From Candidatus Omnitrophota bacterium (lineage in GTDB: Bacteria; Omnitrophota; Gorgyraeia; Aquiviventales; Aquiviventaceae), in the NCBI GenBank assembly GCA_016192545.1, contig JACPTX010000040.1, forward strand, positions 1 through 41,986: a stretch of DNA of 41,986 nt. The letters are read 5' to 3'. The notes beneath the pieces were generated by a model that saw only the letters and a program-made list of their open reading frames with translations, searched no databases and had not been told where the DNA came from. Made by a program: the position numbers and the translations under genes. This document shows positions 541 to 34,767 of this stretch, piece after piece (the first letter of the stretch is position 1; every line of letters starts with the position of its first letter).

Positions 541-569
541 GGGGTCAGACCCCTCAGGGGTCTGACCCC
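541..569. repeat. GGGGTCAGACCCC / GGGGTCTGACCCC pair, locus 1
   Basis: 541-553 and 557-569; supplies the last codons and the stop of the twin GT9. Confidence 0.95.
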
Positions 570-2686
570 TTTTTACTTAAGACCGAGATGGCGGCGGCGA
601 ACACTTCCTCGACGCTCAGCTCGGCGATCGCCGTGAAGCGGGACGGGTCGGACGTGTCCAGCACGACGTGGCGGGGTCCCAGTGGCCGCCAGCGAGTCGC
701 ATTCACCCCAGGCTGACAGCGGCCAAACAGCGCCACGACCGGCGTACCGACGGCGGCGGCGACGTGGACCGGGCCGGAGTCGTTGGACACCAGGAGCCGG
801 CAGCGGGCCAGCAGGACGGCCAACTCCCCCACCGACAGCGCGCCGGCCGCGTTCAGCGGACGGCGGCGCATCGCCTGCTCAACCGCGCGGGCATGCCGGG
901 CGTCGTCAGGCCCCGCGACCAGGACGACGCGCGCGCCGCAGGACTCGACCAGGCGGTCGGCCAGCTGCGCGAACCGCTCCGCCGGCCATCGCTTGGAGGC
1001 GTCGCTGGCCGAGGGGTGGAGGGCGACGAGCGGTGAGGCGCCGTCCACGCCGCGCTCCTGAAAGAGCCGCGCGACGCCCGCCTCGGCGGCCGGGTGAATC
1101 GGGACGTACGGGCTCAGGACGCGGGGCGGCTCGAGTCCCCCCGGCCCGCCGTCCGGGGCGGGGAGCACACGCAGCATCTCCACCGCGTACTCCGCTTCGT
1201 GCCTTGCCCCTTCCTGCTTGCGGTGCGGCACGCGATGCGTCAGGAGCCAGCCGCTCTTGCGGTCATACCCGATCCGCACCGGAATCCCGGCCAGCCACGG
1301 GATCCAGTGCGAGCGGTTGGTGGGATGCAGCACGAGCGCGGTGTCGAAGTGGTGGCGGCGCAGGCCGCGCGCAAACCGGATCGTGCTCAGGATGCCCCGG
1401 TGGCGGCCGTCCTTGTCATAGAGAAGAACCTCATTCACACACGGATTCCCCTCGACGAGCTCGCGGCAGACCGGCCTGACCATCATCGCGAGGAAGGCGC
1501 GCGGGTAGGCGTCCCGCAGCGCCTGCAGCACCGGCGTCGAGAGCACCACGTCGCCGATCCGATCGAGACGAATGACCAAAATCCGTTGATGGGCGGGTGA
1601 CGCCGAGGGGAGGTCTCCGCCGCCGGCCGCAGTCCCGTGAGGGACGAGGACGGCAGGCGGAGTCCCGAGGCGGCAGGACCCGCCCCCCGCCTTCTCCAAG
1701 ATGCCCTTGGCAGCACGATAGACCTCATCCACGCTCAGGAACCGCATGCACTCGTGATGGAACTCGCACAGCGCCTGCTCGCACGGGACGCAGAACAGCC
1801 GCCGCTGCAGCACGCGGGACCGCGCGCCGGTGGGGCCGTACTTCGCCGGGTCGGTCGGCCCGAACAGCGCCAGCACCGGGGTGCCCACCGCGCCGGCGAC
1901 GTGGAGCGAGGCCGAATCGTTGGTGATGACGAGGCTGGTCTGCCGCATGAGCGCGGCGAGCTGGCGGACCGTCGTGCATCCCGCCGCGTTGTGCGCCGGA
2001 TGGCGCATGCTCTTCAGGACCTCCTGGATGATCGGAGTCTCATCCGGCTCGCCGCTGAAAATGACCTCGACGCCGTCCTGCTCGATCAACTGGTCGGCCA
2101 CGTCGGCAAAGCGGTCCGCGTACCAGCGCTTGATGTGGCTCCGCGCGCCGGGACAGATGACGACCAGCCGGCCGTCCGTCGGCACTCCCCACCGCCTCCT
2201 CAGCAGCGTCTCGACCGCCGCCTCATCCTCCGGACTGATCCACATCGAAGAACGTTCGAGGTTCGAGGCTCCAGGTTCTAGGTCGTTCCCTCGAACCTTG
2301 AACCTCGAACCTAGAGCCATGTGTAATTTCCAGAGATGCCGTGTGCGCATATGGACAATCCGTTTCGGGACCGGCCAGAAATAGCGCCAGCAGCGCCAGG
2401 GCTTCCACACCAGCGGCAGCATCGTCTGGCGCAGGTCAATCAACAGATCCGGGCGCTGCCGCCAGACCAACCCGACGAGCCGCAGGCGCCCGATCCAGCC
2501 GCTGAACTCGTCCAGGGTGATCACCTGAGCCAGGCGCGGGTCATGCGCAAACAGCGCCTGGGCCCGGTCGCCGGCCAAGAGCGTCAGCTCGGCCTGCGGG
2601 AACCGCTGATGGAGCCGCTCGATGACCGGGCTCATCAGCACCGCATCCCCGACGTTGGACAATCCCACGACGAGAATCCGTCTCAT
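554..2686 (-). CDS. Twin-domain glycosyltransferase family 9 (heptosyltransferase-like)
   Basis: Two GT9 N-termini in one ORF (MRRILVVGLSNVGDAVLMSPVIERL and ILVIRLDRIGDVVLSTPVLQALRDAYP), each with an NDS(A/G)xxHVAxAVGTPVxALFG motif. Confidence 0.9.
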   Translation of the reverse strand: MRRILVVGLSNVGDAVLMSPVIERLHQRFPQAELTLLAGDRAQALFAHDPRLAQVITLDEFSGWIGRLRLVGLVWRQRPDLLIDLRQTMLPLVWKPWRCWRYFWPVPKRIVHMRTRHLWKLHMALGSRFKVRGNDLEPGASNLERSSMWISPEDEAAVETLLRRRWGVPTDGRLVVICPGARSHIKRWYADRFADVADQLIEQDGVEVIFSGEPDETPIIQEVLKSMRHPAHNAAGCTTVRQLAALMRQTSLVITNDSASLHVAGAVGTPVLALFGPTDPAKYGPTGARSRVLQRRLFCVPCEQALCEFHHECMRFLSVDEVYRAAKGILEKAGGGSCRLGTPPAVLVPHGTAAGGGDLPSASPAHQRILVIRLDRIGDVVLSTPVLQALRDAYPRAFLAMMVRPVCRELVEGNPCVNEVLLYDKDGRHRGILSTIRFARGLRRHHFDTALVLHPTNRSHWIPWLAGIPVRIGYDRKSGWLLTHRVPHRKQEGARHEAEYAVEMLRVLPAPDGGPGGLEPPRVLSPYVPIHPAAEAGVARLFQERGVDGASPLVALHPSASDASKRWPAERFAQLADRLVESCGARVVLVAGPDDARHARAVEQAMRRRPLNAAGALSVGELAVLLARCRLLVSNDSGPVHVAAAVGTPVVALFGRCQPGVNATRWRPLGPRHVVLDTSDPSRFTAIAELSVEEVFAAAISVLSKKGSDP
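2257..2317. repeat. Inverted heptamer array in the twin GT9 gene
   Basis: CGAGGTT CGAGGCT CCAGGTT CTAGGTC - GTTCC - CTCGAAC CTTGAAC CTCGAAC CTAGAGC. Confidence 0.9.
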
Positions 2687-3662
2687 CCCACGCCCTGCGC
2701 CAGCAATCGTTCGGCCGCCTCGTGCGCTTCGTCAACCGAAATCGCGTCCATCCCGGGATGGCGCGGGCGGTCCGGGTTGAAGCACGGGATCTGCGGGCAG
2801 CAGTCCGCGTGGTGAATCACGACGGTGCGCTCCGGAGCCCCCAGCGGTCCGGTGAACGCGGGCGACGTCGGGCCGTACAGCGCCACGACGGGACGCCGGA
2901 GGGCGCTGGCGATGTGCAGGACCCCGGTGTCGTTCGACACCACGACGCCGGCGCGCTCCAGGCACGCGGCCAGTTGGCGCAGCGTGGTCTGGCCGGCCAG
3001 CACGAGCGGCGGCACGCGCATCCGCCCGCTGATGCGCCGGATGAGCGGCTCGTCATCCGGCCCGCCGGTCAGCGCGATGGCGCGCCCCGGCCGCTGCGCG
3101 AGCCGGTCCGCCAACTCGGCAAACCGCTCCGGCGGCCACCGCTTATGCGGCCAGTTCGCGCCCGGGTGCAGGACGATCAGCGCCGCCTCCTCCGCCCATC
3201 CGCGCTCGCGCAGCCAAGCGCCGGCCGCGGTCCGCTCGTCGTCGCTGAGAAAATATTCGTAGGGGCCCGGCGGCTCGCCTGCGGCTCCCCGCACTTCCGT
3301 CGCCCACCCACCTGCCGGTGGGTACCCGGGCTCGGTCGGCGGCTCCAGCAGGCGCAGGTACACGTGGGCTTTGTGCGCGGGCGCGGCCGGGGCTTTGACG
3401 CGGTGCGTCAGCAGCCAGTTGCTCTTCGGGTGCTCGAATCCGATGCGGCGCGGGATGCCGGCCAGCGTCACCAGCAGCGTGCGCGTGAGGCTCTTGCGCA
3501 GGATGAAGGCGGCGTCGAACCGTTCCGCCCGCAGCACGGCGATGAGCGCGCGCTTGCCCCGGAAGCTGCGGTGGAGGCCGCCCTCGTCATAGACCAGGAA
3601 CTCGTCGAAGTTCGGGTTATTCGCAACCAGTTGGGCACCACGACGAGCAACCGCTCAGCCAT
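2683..3662 (-). pseudogene. Glycosyltransferase family 9 with damaged N-terminus (internal deletion plus frame change)
   Basis: ORF 2683..3537 covers most of a GT9 (LRKSLTRTLLVTLAGIPRRIGF...NDTGVLHIASALRRPVVALYGPTSP). The start MAERLLVVVPNWL at 3662 is in another frame and the usual N-terminal Rossmann segment is missing. Confidence 0.7.
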
Positions 3663-4806
3663 GCCGTTGCCCCACACACGCCTGATACACCTGCTCGACC
3701 TGCGTCACCACCCGCTCGAAATCGTAGCGCGTGCGCGCGGTCTCCTGCGCGCAAGCGGCAAGCTGACCCGCCAGCGCGCCGTCCTGCATGATTCGCACAA
3801 TCGCATCCGCCAACGCCTGCGGGTCGTCCGGCTCGACCAGCAGCCCGGCCTGGCTCTCTTCCAGCGCCCACGTCGAGCCGCCGCCCCGCCGCACCGCGAC
3901 GATGGGCCGCCGGCTCGCCATCGCTTCCAGCAGCGACAGCCCGAATCCCTCTTCGGTCGCCGGCATGAAGACAAAGCAATCCATAAGCGCCAGTGCGGCG
4001 CGCGTGTCAGGCAGCGTCCCGGCGAACCGCACTGCGCGCTGGATGCCAAGCTGCGACGCCACGCGCTCGAGCCGGGCCCGCTGCGGGCCGTCTCCGACGA
4101 TGAGCAGGGAGGCGTCCGGCGTCTGCGAGCGCAGCGAGTCCCGAGCAGAGTCGAGGGATGACACGACTCGCCGGAACGCTTCAAGCAAGTGGTCAACGCC
4201 CTTGCTCGGCACGAGGCGCGCCACGGTGCCGATGATCGGCCCAGCATGGTCCAGGTTCAGCCGCGCGCGCAGCGCCTGCACCTCCGCGGCGCCCGCCGGG
4301 GCTGCGAACCTCGCGGCGTCGATGCCGTGCGGGATCAGGTGGATGCGGGACTCCGGCACCCGGAACACCGCCTGCAGATGATCCGCCACCGGCCGGCTGA
4401 TCGCGATGGTCCGCGTCCCGGTGCACGGCCACCATCGTCGAGACAACCTCCGCCGATAGAACCCGTGCCACGTCGTGACGTACGGAATCCCATGGCGGCG
4501 CCAGAGCCCATGGGCCACGACCTGCGCGACGCGGGTGTGCGCGTGGATCACGTCTACGGTCTGCCTGGCGAGCAAGCCGTCCAGTTGGCGGGCGGCGCGC
4601 CAGACCTGTGGGCTGAACTCCGCGCTCGTCGCCAGCGGCGCCTCCCAGTGTGTCAGACCATCGCGCGCGCACCGCGAGGCCAGCGCCCCGCCGCCCGACG
4701 CCACCACGACCTGGTGCCCGCGCCGGGCGAGCGCTTCGGCGAGACTCACCACATACGTGGTGATGCCCCCGACATTCAGATGTGACGTGATGTGCAACAC
4801 TCGCAT
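3655..4806 (-). CDS. Glycosyltransferase family 4
   Basis: MRVLHITSHLNVGGITTYVVSLAEALARRGHQV...GTVARLVPSKGVDHLLEAF...EEGFGLSLLEAMASRRPIVAV. Confidence 0.9.
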   Translation of the reverse strand: MRVLHITSHLNVGGITTYVVSLAEALARRGHQVVVASGGGALASRCARDGLTHWEAPLATSAEFSPQVWRAARQLDGLLARQTVDVIHAHTRVAQVVAHGLWRRHGIPYVTTWHGFYRRRLSRRWWPCTGTRTIAISRPVADHLQAVFRVPESRIHLIPHGIDAARFAAPAGAAEVQALRARLNLDHAGPIIGTVARLVPSKGVDHLLEAFRRVVSSLDSARDSLRSQTPDASLLIVGDGPQRARLERVASQLGIQRAVRFAGTLPDTRAALALMDCFVFMPATEEGFGLSLLEAMASRRPIVAVRRGGGSTWALEESQAGLLVEPDDPQALADAIVRIMQDGALAGQLAACAQETARTRYDFERVVTQVEQVYQACVGQRHG

Positions 4807-22936: not shown

Positions 22937-22945
<9 letters not shown>

Positions 22946-22972
22946 TCACTTACTTACTCACTGACTCACTCC
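22937..22972. repeat. Tetranucleotide array between the 84-aa gene and leuA
   Basis: CTCA CTCA CTCA CTTA CTTA CTCA CTGA CTCA CTCC. Confidence 0.9.
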
Positions 22973-28782: not shown

Positions 28783-31700
28783 TTACTCGTCATCCCGCAT
28801 CTCGTTCACGCTCCGCACCGCGCCTTCCGCCTGAGCCGTTTCATCCTTGGCGGCGGGCGGCGCGGCGGGGCCGGGTGACGGCTCCACCTTCACTGCGGCG
28901 TTTGACAGTTCGTCAGTGTCCAGCGCCTGATTTCTCCACAGCCGCCACAACTTCAACCCGTCGTTATGCCCTCTTGGCAGTAAGTTGACCACCGCCATAG
29001 ACCAACTCGATAGGCCCACCAGCATCACCCACAAGAATTGCAACGGCTGCTGAACCAATACGGCCGGACCCCACGTAGCCAGGATACTCCCCATCACGCC
29101 GGCGACCATGAGGTGCACCACTGGTCCTGCAGCGGCGATCCATGCGCGGTGTCTTTCACGGCCCCTCCAGTCGCCTGTATATGTCACCCGAAATGGCTCT
29201 AACTGGACGCCGTCCACAGACAGATGGTATCTGGCTGCAAGATAATGCGCACCTTCATGGAGGAATTCCTGGAAGACCAACGCCAGCCCAAAGGACAGCC
29301 CAAAGAGCAGCGCCGTCCCAGAGGCGCTCATGACATCCCATAAGCTCACCCCCCAATACCCGAATAAGAGTTGCACCGCCGACGCCATGGACCATCCCAT
29401 GAAAGACCGTATCATGAACTGGCGCCTATAGCTGTGGATAAATGTTCGCCAAGGCACAGAGAGCGAGCGATAGACCGGAATAAGAGAGTCGAGCAACTTA
29501 TATTGGAAGATGAGCTCCGCTCCCCGGGGCGTATCTCGTAGGCGTTCCCAGCGGACCCCAAGAGGGTATTGCACCAGGCGCATTTTCATTGACCTGTCTA
29601 GGGCGGGCGAGAACGGCACCAGATTGACGTAGCGTATCGTTCCCCCCGTCAGTCCAAAGCCTACCTCGAACTCGAATATCCTATAAGATTCGTCTGCTGG
29701 AAGATCGAGTCTGCGCCATTCCTGTTCCGTCGGAATACGACCATGAAGGGGCTCAAATTCAACGGCGATATGAGCGCCAAGAGCGATGGCCTTGGCCCGC
29801 AAGGGAAGCCACTCATCGCTTGCCAGAGTTTTCCCATCCACAAGCCAGACCTGTTGGCTGTCCAGTACGCGGTGCGTCCCAGGTTCAAGGAACAAGACCG
29901 TAGCGGGGGAGGAAGCTGGCTTGCGACGCTGTGGAATCGTGGCGATCACGAACGCCAGGAGTCCCAGTGTTGCAAGGCTGGCCGCAGTCAGCACATACCC
30001 CAGAGACGCCACGCGCGTGTGGAGACTCACGGGAAGCCCAGGAAGGGAATAAATAAGCCAGGCGACCAACGGTGTCAGTGACAGTGCTGCTGAAAGCGCC
30101 GGCCGTGATCCGACTGGTCGCTCCGAGTTATCGCTGGCGGCGGGCCCCGGCGGTGCGGTGGCCCTTCGACTCGGCTCGCCTAGCTCGCCCCGCTCAGGGC
30201 TCACTCCGTTCGCGGGCGGCGCGGCGGCGGGATCCTGCGGCTGTCCCCCCGGGCCACCCGGAATCGCAGTCGCCATCGCCAGGAGGGGGATGGTCACCGG
30301 CGGCAGATCCAGGCCAAGCGCCTGCGCCAGGAGGGGCTGCCAGAAGGGCTGGAACGCCACAAGGAGAGCCAGGCCGATGATCTGGAAGGCGAGGCGCGCG
30401 GAAACCGGCTGGAGCAACCAGGGCTTGACACCTGCCCGAGGCGGCGGTATGGTAAGAACCCCGATGGCGAGCCGACGTCCCCACAAGTCCCTGAAGGAAC
30501 CGAAGGAACCGACCAGCGCGGAGGAAGCGCGCCGCACGAACACGCTGTTGGAAGAAATTCGCTCTTCTCTCTCGACCCTTGCTGACGGTGTCCACATGCT
30601 CCAACGTCGGCTTGATCCCATCGAAGGGAGCCTTCGGACAACCATGGAGGACGTTGAATTAATCAAGGCAATCGTGCGCCAGAACACCGATGAACTCGCG
30701 CGAGTGAAGGATGAAATAGCGACCCTGAAAGCCTTCGCCGTTGACCACACAAGAAAACTTGACGCAATTGAGCTCCAGTTCAAGCTGGTGCGAGACGACG
30801 TCAAGGGCTTCACACGAAGGCTTGAACTCGTCGAAACCAAGCTCGCCCCGTAAGTCGCGATCCGCTCCCCGAAGAACAGCGCCCCGCTCAACGCCAGCAG
30901 TCCCCACCCCAGCGGGCTGGCCAGCGTGCCATAGGTGGCGAAGTGGAACGTGAACGCCAGGATCGCCCCGCTGAGGCTGACCACCCCGCCGAGCATCTGC
31001 GCAAGCTTGAGCGCGAGTTTCCCGGTGTCATCATCGAGCCCTGCGCGCGAGGCCGGCCCGCCCTCCGCCGAGCCCCCGCGCGTCCCCCCGCCTGTCGCCC
31101 CCGTCGCGCCGGATGGAATAAGGACGATCATGTCGCCAGCCTGCAACCTGACTGAAGTGCTGCGACGTAACCGCCCGGTTACGTCTTCTTCACCGCCCTC
31201 CCGATGATGGATGAACACCCGCAGGGTTTCCCTGAGGGTCCCCATCTGAGTGAAGATTTGGGAGCGTAGTTGGGGATACGAACCCTTCGTGTGGTCGCTA
31301 GTGAGGTCATCGAGTGCTTCCACGACCGTCTGCCCCTCGCCAGCTCTGACGGGCTGCCCATCGGCGCGGGACTGCCACGCTGTTGGTATCACAATGGGGG
31401 TCTCTGACAACTCCTTCTCGCGTGTCATCACAAAGGCTTGAAGCCGCCTTAGCTGCCAGTCTCGACGCAGGTATGCCTGTTGGACCTCTTTGGACAATGA
31501 GTCCCAGCTTTGTGCATCGGTGGCAATTAAGAATCGTTGGCCAAATAGTTCCAACCCCGGTACATTATTGATACACGCAAAGTCTTCCTTGTCCTCTGCA
31601 TCTGTCGGGGGATGCTGGATAGCCGCGTAGATGATCGCTTCAGTGATGGTGAGAATGGACTGGAGGCGGCTGGCGAGCTTCTCTGACGACATTGGCCACA

Positions 31701-33966
31701 CGTCTTGTTTAAACGATTCTCTTGCAAGCTCGTTAGCCAGTCCAAGCACCGCTTGCACTTGGTCAGGGGTGAACCCTCGCGCCACCAACCAGCGCGCCAT
31801 CCGCGGAACCTCTTGATCGTAGGTGTGTCGGATTTGTTGACCGTACTTGTCCAAATAGTCAGCGAGGAAGGGATACTGTCGCCTCCACGCGGTGGGCGGC
31901 GCGGTGGACGGTTCCTTGGGCTGGCCCGGGCCGGGTGGAAGGCCGGTCGCCATCGCCAAGAGGGTGCCGTTGGCAGGGTCGAGCTGGAACTCCTGGCCCA
32001 GGATGGAAATGACCGCGACGCCGGCGGCCATGCGAAAGGCCAACCGCAACTGTGCCGCAACTTCCGGATGCTGCGCCCGCCACTCGCTGATCATTGCTCG
32101 AAGCTGCTCGGCTCCCCGCACGGCGTACGCCTTGAGGGTGATGAAACGTTGCAGAATCGTCTGAAACTTTGAGGAGGGTTGCTCATCCTCCTGTTGATCA
32201 GACTTCGCTATTGCCGGGCCAGAGGGTTGCTTGGCGGGAAGGCCGCCGGATATGGACACATTGGAGGCCTGGCTGGGGTTCAACGCTTGGCTGTGCAACT
32301 GCTCGAACTTCTGAATGAGCTCCTCGATCGGCGGGATTTCGTTCTGGAGGCGGGATTGGTAGCGGGCTTCGTCCAGCGGGGCGGTGGAGGAGGGGGTGAT
32401 GACGGCGTAGGCGATGGACTGTTCCTTGAAGCGCTGGGTCAGGCCGGCGGTATGGAAGCCGCCGGTGATAAGCACTGTGGCTCGTGAAGCGTATCTCGTG
32501 AAGCGTGAAGCGTTGGACGTGTGGCGAGGAGGCTGGTCGAGAAGCGTGAGGGTGTTGCGGAGGAAGGCGTCGTCGCGCTGGTGGGCGAGGGCGTAGAAGC
32601 GCTCCCATGTCGGCAAAGCTGCCATGAACTCGTGAAGCGTATCTCGTGAAGCGTGAAGCGCAAGCTGGTCAAGACCCAGCAAGATGGAGTCGGCGGTGAG
32701 ATAAGGACGGCGCTGCTGATATGTGCGGAAATCGTCCGGAGAAAGTTTGGTATGGGCCAGGTTGTCGAGGAGTTGGACGTCTTCGAGCAGGCGCGCCAGA
32801 GTCCGTTGCTCGTCGGTGGCGAAGTGGCGCTGCTCAACTGCCTCCTGCAACCGATCCACTTCCTGGGTCAGCTTGCCGAGATGGATCTGCGCAGAGAGCG
32901 TCAGGTACTCGACGTACTGGCGCAGGGCGTGGTAGTTGGCCTGGGGGCCATTAAGCAACCCCTGGGCGGCGGTGAGGCGCAACAGCGATTCGTAATAGAG
33001 TCGGACCGGTTTGGTCCTGGCGGTGACGGCGTTCGCCAGCGCGTTGAGCTGATCCTGCTGGGTGAGCGTCAGCTTTGGCCAGAGAACTTTCAGAAGGCGG
33101 TCGCGATCCGATTCGACGAGCTTGGTGTTGAGCTGGGGATGAAGCTCGTAGGTCTGCACCATGGCGCGGAGATTCGGATAGTCGTTGAGCTCGATCTGCG
33201 CGCCTTGAGCTAACCGCGTCAATTCCGTCAAGTAGGGTTGGAAACTTTGGTCCTCTCCGCCCTCGTAGGCGTCGCGGAGCAAGAGGAGGTTGTGGAGCGA
33301 GCCGGGATAGCGCTGCGTCCTCAGTGCGCGGAGCTGCTCGCGAAGCGGCGTCAGGATGGAATCGGCCTGGGCCTGCCACTGGGCGCCCTGCCCGTACACC
33401 TTGAGATGTTCAAGATACGTCGCCTCATCTTCCACGCCCCACAGGGTGACCTTTCCGGGATTCGTGATGCCGTAGTACTCGGCGCCGGTGAACAACCCCT
33501 CCTGCATGAACAGCCGGGAAATCTTCTCGGTGCTGGGCGGGTCGGGGAAATCGGAATACAGGGCCGTGTCGCACAGGCCTGCCGCGCCTTCGAGGGCGAC
33601 CAGTTCGACGCCGAACCGCTCGCGGAAATAGGCGATCAGCTCACTGAGATGCTGCTGGGCGTCGGGATGGGTGTGGAGGTCCTGCAGGTGGATGACGACC
33701 GCCGAGGGCTCGCGATCCTCCGGCTGCCACGTCTCGACGATGTGGCCCAGCGTCTCCGGAATGCTGAGAGACGCCAGATCCAGCTTGGCGAGGTCGAAGG
33801 ACGGGCCGGCGGCGGTCTGCGGCGGGGCGGTCGTGACGGCCTCCGCCAATACAGCAGGAGCCGGGCCGGACGTCAGCGCCACGGCAAACGCCAAGGAGAC
33901 GCAGAGGCCCCGCCTCCAACTCCCCAGGATGCGGCTGGACAGAATTACGGGTAGCTTTTGGGACAT
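28783..33966 (-). CDS. Giant multidomain exported/membrane ORF: N-terminal TraB/ChaN(TIKI)-like region, several TM/Pro-Gly linkers, C-terminal M50 site-2-protease-like domain
   Basis: N-terminal signal/TM; VVIHLQDLHTHPDAQQHLSELIAYFRERFGVELVALEGA ... VLITGGFHTAGL; C-terminal FQEFLHEGAHYLAARYHL ... AAAGPVVHLMVAGVMG ... VVNLLPRGHNDGLKLWRLWR (HExxH plus NxxPxxxxDG). The single-ORF extent is open, but an antisense gene may interrupt it. Confidence 0.7.
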   Translation of the reverse strand: MSQKLPVILSSRILGSWRRGLCVSLAFAVALTSGPAPAVLAEAVTTAPPQTAAGPSFDLAKLDLASLSIPETLGHIVETWQPEDREPSAVVIHLQDLHTHPDAQQHLSELIAYFRERFGVELVALEGAAGLCDTALYSDFPDPPSTEKISRLFMQEGLFTGAEYYGITNPGKVTLWGVEDEATYLEHLKVYGQGAQWQAQADSILTPLREQLRALRTQRYPGSLHNLLLLRDAYEGGEDQSFQPYLTELTRLAQGAQIELNDYPNLRAMVQTYELHPQLNTKLVESDRDRLLKVLWPKLTLTQQDQLNALANAVTARTKPVRLYYESLLRLTAAQGLLNGPQANYHALRQYVEYLTLSAQIHLGKLTQEVDRLQEAVEQRHFATDEQRTLARLLEDVQLLDNLAHTKLSPDDFRTYQQRRPYLTADSILLGLDQLALHASRDTLHEFMAALPTWERFYALAHQRDDAFLRNTLTLLDQPPRHTSNASRFTRYASRATVLITGGFHTAGLTQRFKEQSIAYAVITPSSTAPLDEARYQSRLQNEIPPIEELIQKFEQLHSQALNPSQASNVSISGGLPAKQPSGPAIAKSDQQEDEQPSSKFQTILQRFITLKAYAVRGAEQLRAMISEWRAQHPEVAAQLRLAFRMAAGVAVISILGQEFQLDPANGTLLAMATGLPPGPGQPKEPSTAPPTAWRRQYPFLADYLDKYGQQIRHTYDQEVPRMARWLVARGFTPDQVQAVLGLANELARESFKQDVWPMSSEKLASRLQSILTITEAIIYAAIQHPPTDAEDKEDFACINNVPGLELFGQRFLIATDAQSWDSLSKEVQQAYLRRDWQLRRLQAFVMTREKELSETPIVIPTAWQSRADGQPVRAGEGQTVVEALDDLTSDHTKGSYPQLRSQIFTQMGTLRETLRVFIHHREGGEEDVTGRLRRSTSVRLQAGDMIVLIPSGATGATGGGTRGGSAEGGPASRAGLDDDTGKLALKLAQMLGGVVSLSGAILAFTFHFATYGTLASPLGWGLLALSGALFFGERIATYGASLVSTSSSLRVKPLTSSRTSLNWSSIASSFLVWSTAKAFRVAISSFTRASSSVFWRTIALINSTSSMVVRRLPSMGSSRRWSMWTPSARVEREERISSNSVFVRRASSALVGSFGSFRDLWGRRLAIGVLTIPPPRAGVKPWLLQPVSARLAFQIIGLALLVAFQPFWQPLLAQALGLDLPPVTIPLLAMATAIPGGPGGQPQDPAAAPPANGVSPERGELGEPSRRATAPPGPAASDNSERPVGSRPALSAALSLTPLVAWLIYSLPGLPVSLHTRVASLGYVLTAASLATLGLLAFVIATIPQRRKPASSPATVLFLEPGTHRVLDSQQVWLVDGKTLASDEWLPLRAKAIALGAHIAVEFEPLHGRIPTEQEWRRLDLPADESYRIFEFEVGFGLTGGTIRYVNLVPFSPALDRSMKMRLVQYPLGVRWERLRDTPRGAELIFQYKLLDSLIPVYRSLSVPWRTFIHSYRRQFMIRSFMGWSMASAVQLLFGYWGVSLWDVMSASGTALLFGLSFGLALVFQEFLHEGAHYLAARYHLSVDGVQLEPFRVTYTGDWRGRERHRAWIAAAGPVVHLMVAGVMGSILATWGPAVLVQQPLQFLWVMLVGLSSWSMAVVNLLPRGHNDGLKLWRLWRNQALDTDELSNAAVKVEPSPGPAAPPAAKDETAQAEGAVRSVNEMRDDE
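30425..30453 (+). promoter_or_regulatory. Putative sigma70-like promoter of the embedded plus-strand gene
   Basis: TTGACA (30425-30430), 17 nt, TATGGT (30448-30453), immediately upstream of candidate start ATG 30464. Confidence 0.35.
30464..30853 (+). CDS. Probable coiled-coil protein embedded antisense in the giant ORF
   Basis: MASRRPHKSLKEPKEPTSAEEARRTNTLLEEIRSSLSTLADGVHMLQRRLDPIEGSLRTTMEDVELIKAIVRQNTDELARVKDEIATLKAFAVDHTRKLDAIELQFKLVRDDVKGFTRRLELVETKLAP: protein-like heptads, unlike the Ser/Arg-rich antisense reading. Alternative start ATG 30449. Confidence 0.65.
   Translation: MASRRPHKSLKEPKEPTSAEEARRTNTLLEEIRSSLSTLADGVHMLQRRLDPIEGSLRTTMEDVELIKAIVRQNTDELARVKDEIATLKAFAVDHTRKLDAIELQFKLVRDDVKGFTRRLELVETKLAP
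32481..32512. repeat. 32-nt heptamer-periodic repeat, copy 1, in the giant ORF
   Basis: CTCGTGAAGCGTATCTCGTGAAGCGTGAAGCG, identical to 32629-32660. Confidence 0.95.
32629..32660. repeat. 32-nt heptamer-periodic repeat, copy 2, in the giant ORF
   Basis: CTCGTGAAGCGTATCTCGTGAAGCGTGAAGCG, offset 148 nt from copy 1, so read in a different frame. Confidence 0.95.
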
Positions 33967-34008: not shown

Positions 34009-34767
34009 CTAGGCGGGCTGAACCGCCCGAGAGGATGAAGACGGGGAAACTCGAAGCTCGGGTCGTATTGTACAGTCCATTGGGTAGAGGTACAGGGGGG
34101 TCAGACGGGCGGGGTCATCGGTCCGGCCTTGGCGAAGCCGCTCAAGGCCCAGGCGTCCCAGCGTCGCGGCCCGCGGCAGCCACAGGTCCGGGGCGGCGAA
34201 GCGGGCCCGGTCACCCAGCCGCTCCTTGAGGACGGCCTCGTAGAGCGCGATGCCGTCGCCGACGAAAAGCACGGATCCTTCGGGGTCAGACCCCTTCGGG
34301 GTCAGACCCCTCAGCAGTTCGGGGATCAGTTCGTCCACGGACAGGAGGTGGTAGTCGGACTGTTTCTTCAGCAGGCCGGCCTCGCCGCGATAGAGCGCGG
34401 CGTAGACTTTGCGCTGCTTGGCGTCCACGATGGGGCAGATGAGGTCCGGCGACAGGGCGGCGTTCGACGCCAGCACGTCCAGCGACGGCACGCCGACGAG
34501 AGGTTTCTTGAAGCGGAAGAGCAGCGCCTTCACGAACGCGATCCCGATCCGCAGGCCGGTGAATGAGCCGGGGCCGATGTCCACGGCGACTCCATCGAGC
34601 TGCTCCAGCGTGCTGTCGGATTCCTGCAGCACCCGCGTGAGGGCCTGAGGCAATTCCACGGCATGCACCCGCTCGGCCAGGACCTCGTAGGAGGCCAGCA
34701 CCTTCGCCTCGTCGAGGACCGCGACCCCCAGTTGCGAGGAGGACGTCTCAATGGCTAACAGTTTCAT
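34009..34767 (-). CDS. tsaB: tRNA t6A biosynthesis protein TsaB
   Basis: MKLLAIETSSSQLGVAVLDEAKVLASYEVLAERVHAVELPQALTRVLQESDSTLEQLDGVAVDIGPGSFTGLRIGIAFVKALLF. Confidence 0.94.
   Translation of the reverse strand: MKLLAIETSSSQLGVAVLDEAKVLASYEVLAERVHAVELPQALTRVLQESDSTLEQLDGVAVDIGPGSFTGLRIGIAFVKALLFRFKKPLVGVPSLDVLASNAALSPDLICPIVDAKQRKVYAALYRGEAGLLKKQSDYHLLSVDELIPELLRGLTPKGSDPEGSVLFVGDGIALYEAVLKERLGDRARFAAPDLWLPRAATLGRLGLERLRQGRTDDPARLTPLYLYPMDCTIRPELRVSPSSSSRAVQPA
34282..34310. repeat. GGGGTCAGACCCC direct pair, locus 3 (in tsaB)
   Basis: 34282-34294 and 34298-34310. Confidence 0.95.

Follow-up and report, generated by a model that had tools for sequence, protein, structure and literature searches.

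Heptameric repeats in bacteria include GGGAATC in Xanthomonas and GGGGA(C/T)T in Nostoc (PMC4692102), which are placed within the heptameric long simple sequence repeats (Mrazek et al. 2007, as cited in PMC4692102), and the four-fold GGACCGG heptanucleotide elements of Geobacter metallireducens (PMC2700814). Direct repeats of a further heptamer, TAACTGA, occur in Beggiatoaceae, Cyanobacteria and Bacteroidetes (MacGregor 2015, PMC4679880), and heptanucleotide repeats form the stem P6b of the Nostoc trnL intron (PMC4476775). Repeats of this period are thus documented, as are pairs that face each other, an asymmetry between frames and the presence of several copies per gene, and a 7-nt period has been proposed by Mrazek et al. 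to reflect polymerase contact (as cited in PMC4679880 and PMC4692102). In the open-access literature we found no description of a CGTGAAG/CGTATCT family across phyla, of a general G-left polarity of facing pairs, or of the heptamer of one genome being replaced by that of another at the same protein loop, and no paper on heptamer repeats in Nitrospira.

The window analyzed here is a stretch of 41,986 nucleotides from an uncultured Candidatus Omnitrophota bacterium (contig JACPTX010000040.1 of assembly GCA_016192545.1). The features around its 32-nt repeat are the following:

28783-33966, minus strand: host ORF of 1727 amino acids, with no Pfam match over the cut-off
32481-32512, plus strand: copy A, consisting of CT, the units CGTGAAG, CGTATCT, CGTGAAG and CGTGAAG, and CG; antisense to the ORF, encoding NASRFTRYASRA
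32629-32660, plus strand: copy B, the same 32 nt as copy A, in another frame and encoding ALHASRDTLHEF
32537-32549, plus strand: TCGAGAAGCGTGA, with 92% similarity to the array; it codes TLTLL in a conserved region of the gene

As the preliminary description had reported, the 32-mer is exact at both positions, 148 nt apart, and lies within a single ORF in two frames. The copies start at codon phases 2 and 1, respectively. No other exact direct repeat in the window is as long, and with independent bases one would expect about 2e-9 pairs of this length there. The flanks of the two copies are each unique and unrelated to each other. The coding strand had been read as CGCTTCA, CGCTTCA, CGAGATA, CGCTTCA, CGAG with a period of 7; this reading is right, although the presence of two unit types, CGTGAAG and CGTATCT, makes the array a degenerate one. 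By their period and repeated units, the copies belong to the heptameric tandem repeats (the LSSR/STRR class). No opposite-facing arm was found beside copy A or copy B, which therefore do not form facing pairs of the Xanthomonas type. Elsewhere in the window there is a palindromic dispersed repeat of the GGGGTCAGACCCC type (539-570, 34277-34311, 35966 and 40626), and a CTCA tetranucleotide run of about nine copies (22937-22971).

Like the Xanthomonas and Nostoc repeats (PMC4692102), arrays of this kind combine a period of 7 with degenerate units, dispersal and length variation between relatives, and they share with Xanthomonas, which has 70-75 of them, the convergent inverted pair. They differ in the heptamer itself, the units of the Xanthomonas and Nostoc repeats being of the G-quadruplex type while CGTGAAG has no G-tract, and in that each window copy is a lone arm within an ORF. 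With TAACTGA they have in common a heptamer that recurs in distant phyla, but the TAACTGA unit is near-uniform and placed before start codons, with one indirect repeat among 169 sets (PMC4679880). The P6b repeats of Nostoc (PMC4476775) similarly form hairpin arms of degenerate heptamers in which one repeat class is replaced by another in place; they are, however, part of the structural RNA of one intron, and not dispersed arrays in protein genes. The GGACCGG element of G. metallireducens differs in sequence and was described in a single genome (PMC2700814).

The genome search that had been proposed for this type of array returned only these two sites. The exact 32-mer was absent from the remainder of the 1,349,629-base assembly (67 contigs, 1.35 Mb, 86% complete), as were looser versions of the array (17-mer with 1 mismatch, 23-mer with 3 mismatches), and further copies may lie in the roughly 14% of the genome that is missing. 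CGTGAAG arrays are thus not dispersed in their own genome, whereas the family is dispersed in other genomes, and other heptamers are dispersed in this one. Two copies in one gene fit a local copy as well as the spread that had been claimed, and with only these two in the genome they give no direct view of the source or of ongoing movement.

The host protein had no Pfam or NCBIfam match over the cut-off in a profile search, so no name was assigned; its C-terminal part, at 28783-30300, resembled Peptidase_M50 / HExxH metalloproteases weakly (E 0.005 and 7e-6, below the cut-offs). Its N-terminal 560 amino acids are conserved in 11 of the 27 family genomes, including its own. Copy A sits in a 13-amino-acid (39-nt) in-frame insertion directly upstream of the conserved LITGGFHT motif; the compared orthologues lack this insertion, and the spacing from the N-T/L motif to GGFHT/S is 29 residues in the window against 16 in the orthologues counted, as read by eye. 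Copy B lies in a linker of variable length, to which the array adds no net length. At the same site, genome G003 carries a different period-7 array, GTGACCAGTGGTCAGTGGTCGGTGACCAGTGA (lag-7 score 9), while in G010 inspection by eye showed a stretch with a degenerate period of 7, ACCAATCACCAGTCACTGGTCACC, that falls below the scan threshold. Because the compared orthologues are without its insertion, copy A is the likelier newcomer of the two. Identity to the nearest orthologues is about 46-63%, too low for junctions or any target-site duplication to be read; the TCGAGAAGCGTGA segment is a possible microhomology adjoining copy A.

The core 23-mer of the array, CGTGAAGCGTATCTCGTGAAGCG, was found in at least 118 stretches of the genome collection, spanning several phyla. 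Nitrospira, Latescibacterota, Omnitrophota, Tritonobacter, Sedimentisphaerales and Syntrophaceae/Smithellaceae were, with others, among the matches listed, and Planctomycetota and Desulfobacterota are further phyla with the CGTGAAG core besides Nitrospira, Latescibacterota and Omnitrophota. Within the Omnitrophota, 7 of 384 genomes contained the core, scattered over five families, and the reversed pattern used as a control occurred in none. Two pairs of family loci (L010/L019 and L012/L128) had the same sequence around the array, the named records being Candidatus Omnitrophota. Arrays consist of 4-11 units, and CGTGAAG and CGTATCT dominate in all groups, a sharing that is partly built in, since the scan asked for these units. 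Positioned against the calls of our own simple gene caller, 76 of 121 arrays were intergenic, 35 overlapped a gene end and 10 lay inside a called gene. An opposite-facing unit followed within 150 nt downstream in 87/121 arrays and upstream in 2/121, compared to 6% of control windows. Upstream genes in the same sense ended at a TGA within the array in 13 of 68 cases, and 44/68 arrays either contained the stop of such a gene or started no more than 10 nt from it. Length change by whole units was seen at a single orthologous site, in Nitrospira, where the arrays differ by exactly two heptamers, CGTGAGG CGTCAAA. Near position 76 of L281, at a Nitrospira orthologous site, the left flank switches exactly at the array edge, reflecting a rearrangement or an assembly join at the repeat.

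Translation of the arrays shows an asymmetry between strands: none of the three frames of (CTTCACG)n contains a stop, the product being LHASRFT or a rotation of it, whereas every frame of (CGTGAAG)n meets a TGA. MacGregor found the same asymmetry for TAACTGA, whose forward arrays stop all frames and whose reverse arrays are read through in ORFs as a heptapeptide (PMC4679880). In the window, the ORF reads the CTTCACG strand of each copy; survival alone would thus produce the shared orientation, which does not point to tandem duplication. The preliminary description had argued from the difference between the two protein products to spread at the level of DNA. The peptides do differ but are not unrelated, as a homogeneous 7-nt array gives one heptapeptide cycle in any frame, and the frame argument is weak on its own, because reading the antisense strand makes every frame acceptable. 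What upholds DNA-level spread is the core's occurrence in many unrelated loci of several phyla, together with the 39-nt insertion that holds copy A.

The window has a second heptamer element inside an ORF, from a family other than CGTGAAG:

2254-2318, strand unassigned: convergent GGTTCRA hairpin within the heptosyltransferase ORF (554-2686, minus strand), coding GSRFKVRG..LEPGASNLE

Here two arrays do face each other to form a stem. In other genera the same heptosyltransferase loop holds different heptamer arrays, with (CAAGSGA)n in G003, GGGTTCC facing GGGCTCT in G010 and GGGCTCM in G016, whereas no array was present there in G004, G008, G009 and G013; in G018 the array has a period of 8, and the loop in locus L337 (1869-1896) holds the period-8 array (GTGGCCGA)n where relatives have period-7 ones. 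The in-gene array matches the dispersed repeats of its own genome at least in G003 and in G000, the genome of the window, as indicated by doublet counts: CAAGSGA doublets number 100 in G003 and 0 in G000, and GGTTCNA doublets 25 in G000 and 0 in G003. The sequence CAAGSGACAAGSGA occurs 100 times in the 1.4-Mb G003 genome (loci L346 and L355), compared to 0-14 times in other family members.

A census of arrays with a score of at least 12, covering 1,172,255 of the 1,349,629 bases of this genome, revealed 45 arrays at lag 7, compared to 3, 6, 6, 6, 2 and 0 at lags 5, 6, 8, 9, 10 and 11; lag 12 had 14 arrays, and lag 14 is a harmonic. The main family, GGTTCRA, takes the form of convergent hairpins with short loops, with 13 convergent pairs and 1 divergent pair in this genome and 12 and 0 in relatives. 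Over all fetched sequence there were 46 distinct complementary inverted pairs at lag 7, and in 43 of them the left (5') arm was the one with the higher G skew; these counts come from loci often fetched because they hold heptamers, and are not a random sample, though polarity is less affected. When the CGTGAA family was excluded, 38 of 41 pairs were still G-left (binomial p 5e-9, treating elements as independent though many share a family). Inverted pairs at other lags amounted to four at lag 8 and three at lag 9, with none at 5, 6, 10 or 11. Within 1.4 kb of one Omnitrophota contig, L127, three facing heptamer hairpins have three different unit sequences (3122-3186, 3835-3901 and 4404-4479). 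An apparent anti-complementarity of hairpin arms, with 5/38 matches at position 6 of GGTTCNA in this genome against 12.5 expected (p 0.004), was dropped, relatives giving 11/32 against 10.4.

We propose that each 32-mer is a copy of a degenerate CGTGAAG/CGTATCT heptameric tandem repeat and arose through copying of DNA combined with slippage, and put the probability of this reading at about 0.66. Arrays would gain and lose whole 7-nt units by slippage and would also spread as short patches of DNA, probably when replication switches template at microhomology. Their usual setting is intergenic, where two facing arrays make up a hairpin-like pair, with survival inside genes mainly for the arm read as CTTCACG, which is open in all frames while the CGTGAAG strand has TGA, and where a loop tolerates it; the array peptide would be tolerated in linkers. 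The likely origin of the window pair is either copying of one from the other across 148 nt or derivation of both from a single external source; both routes fit, and the step from site to site is one that we infer. The fixed polarity of pairs could, as a conjecture, come from nascent strands snapping back after a G-rich array.

Movement of the arrays as a mobile element, by a RAYT-like enzyme or another factor that would have left half-elements in the window, would account for the two facing arms of fixed polarity in the usual element and for copies dispersed over many loci, and Y1 transposases are present in 19 of the 27 family genomes. We nevertheless consider it unlikely, as the arrays have no fixed ends and vary in unit number, the heptamer sequence changes between genomes while the architecture stays constant, and the window copies are without a second arm. 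A RAYT as the mover was rejected, there being no Y1_Tnp (PF01797) match in the window's own genome at 86% completeness, which also sets the arrays apart from REP/REPIN elements moved by RAYT. Slightly less probable again is a regulatory role, in which the heptamers would act near gene ends, as putative binding sites or as RNA hairpins, with those inside genes being strays. The arrays near or across upstream same-sense stops (44/68, by the same gene caller) and the stable hairpins formed by several elements are in keeping with such a role; however, no heptamer sequence is common to the genomes, arrays also lie inside genes, and the origin of the copies is left unexplained.

Copying of the heptameric array as DNA also accounts better for the two copies than does selection on the protein, by which a useful peptide repeat was duplicated within the gene. 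In keeping with such selection, neither copy breaks the frame and both fall in the same domain. Against it, two copies with identical DNA are read in different frames, this DNA is found in intergenic positions in other phyla, and other orthologues carry unrelated peptides or nothing at these sites, making this explanation highly improbable. We give marginally less credence still to one copy being a misassembled duplicate: such an error is conceivable in an incomplete genome of 67 contigs, given that assembly may collapse or expand repeats, but the copies have unique flanks and preserve frame, and both sites agree with the orthologue alignment.

Why repeats of seven nucleotides in particular are over-represented in bacteria is not settled. 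Three testable regularities emerge from this analysis: the period is constant while the sequence changes by genome, the G-rich arm is 5' in 43/46 pairs, and orthologous loops take different arrays. They link a long-known genomic peculiarity to the origin of new protein segments, since a heptamer array without stops is readable in every frame. It is conceivable, although we hold this only tentatively and think it rather less probable than not, that many bacterial genomes run a hitherto undescribed copying process, producing facing period-7 arrays with the G-rich arm 5' in a heptamer "dialect" specific to each genome, and repeatedly dropping them into the same protein loops as peptide segments that can be read in any frame.
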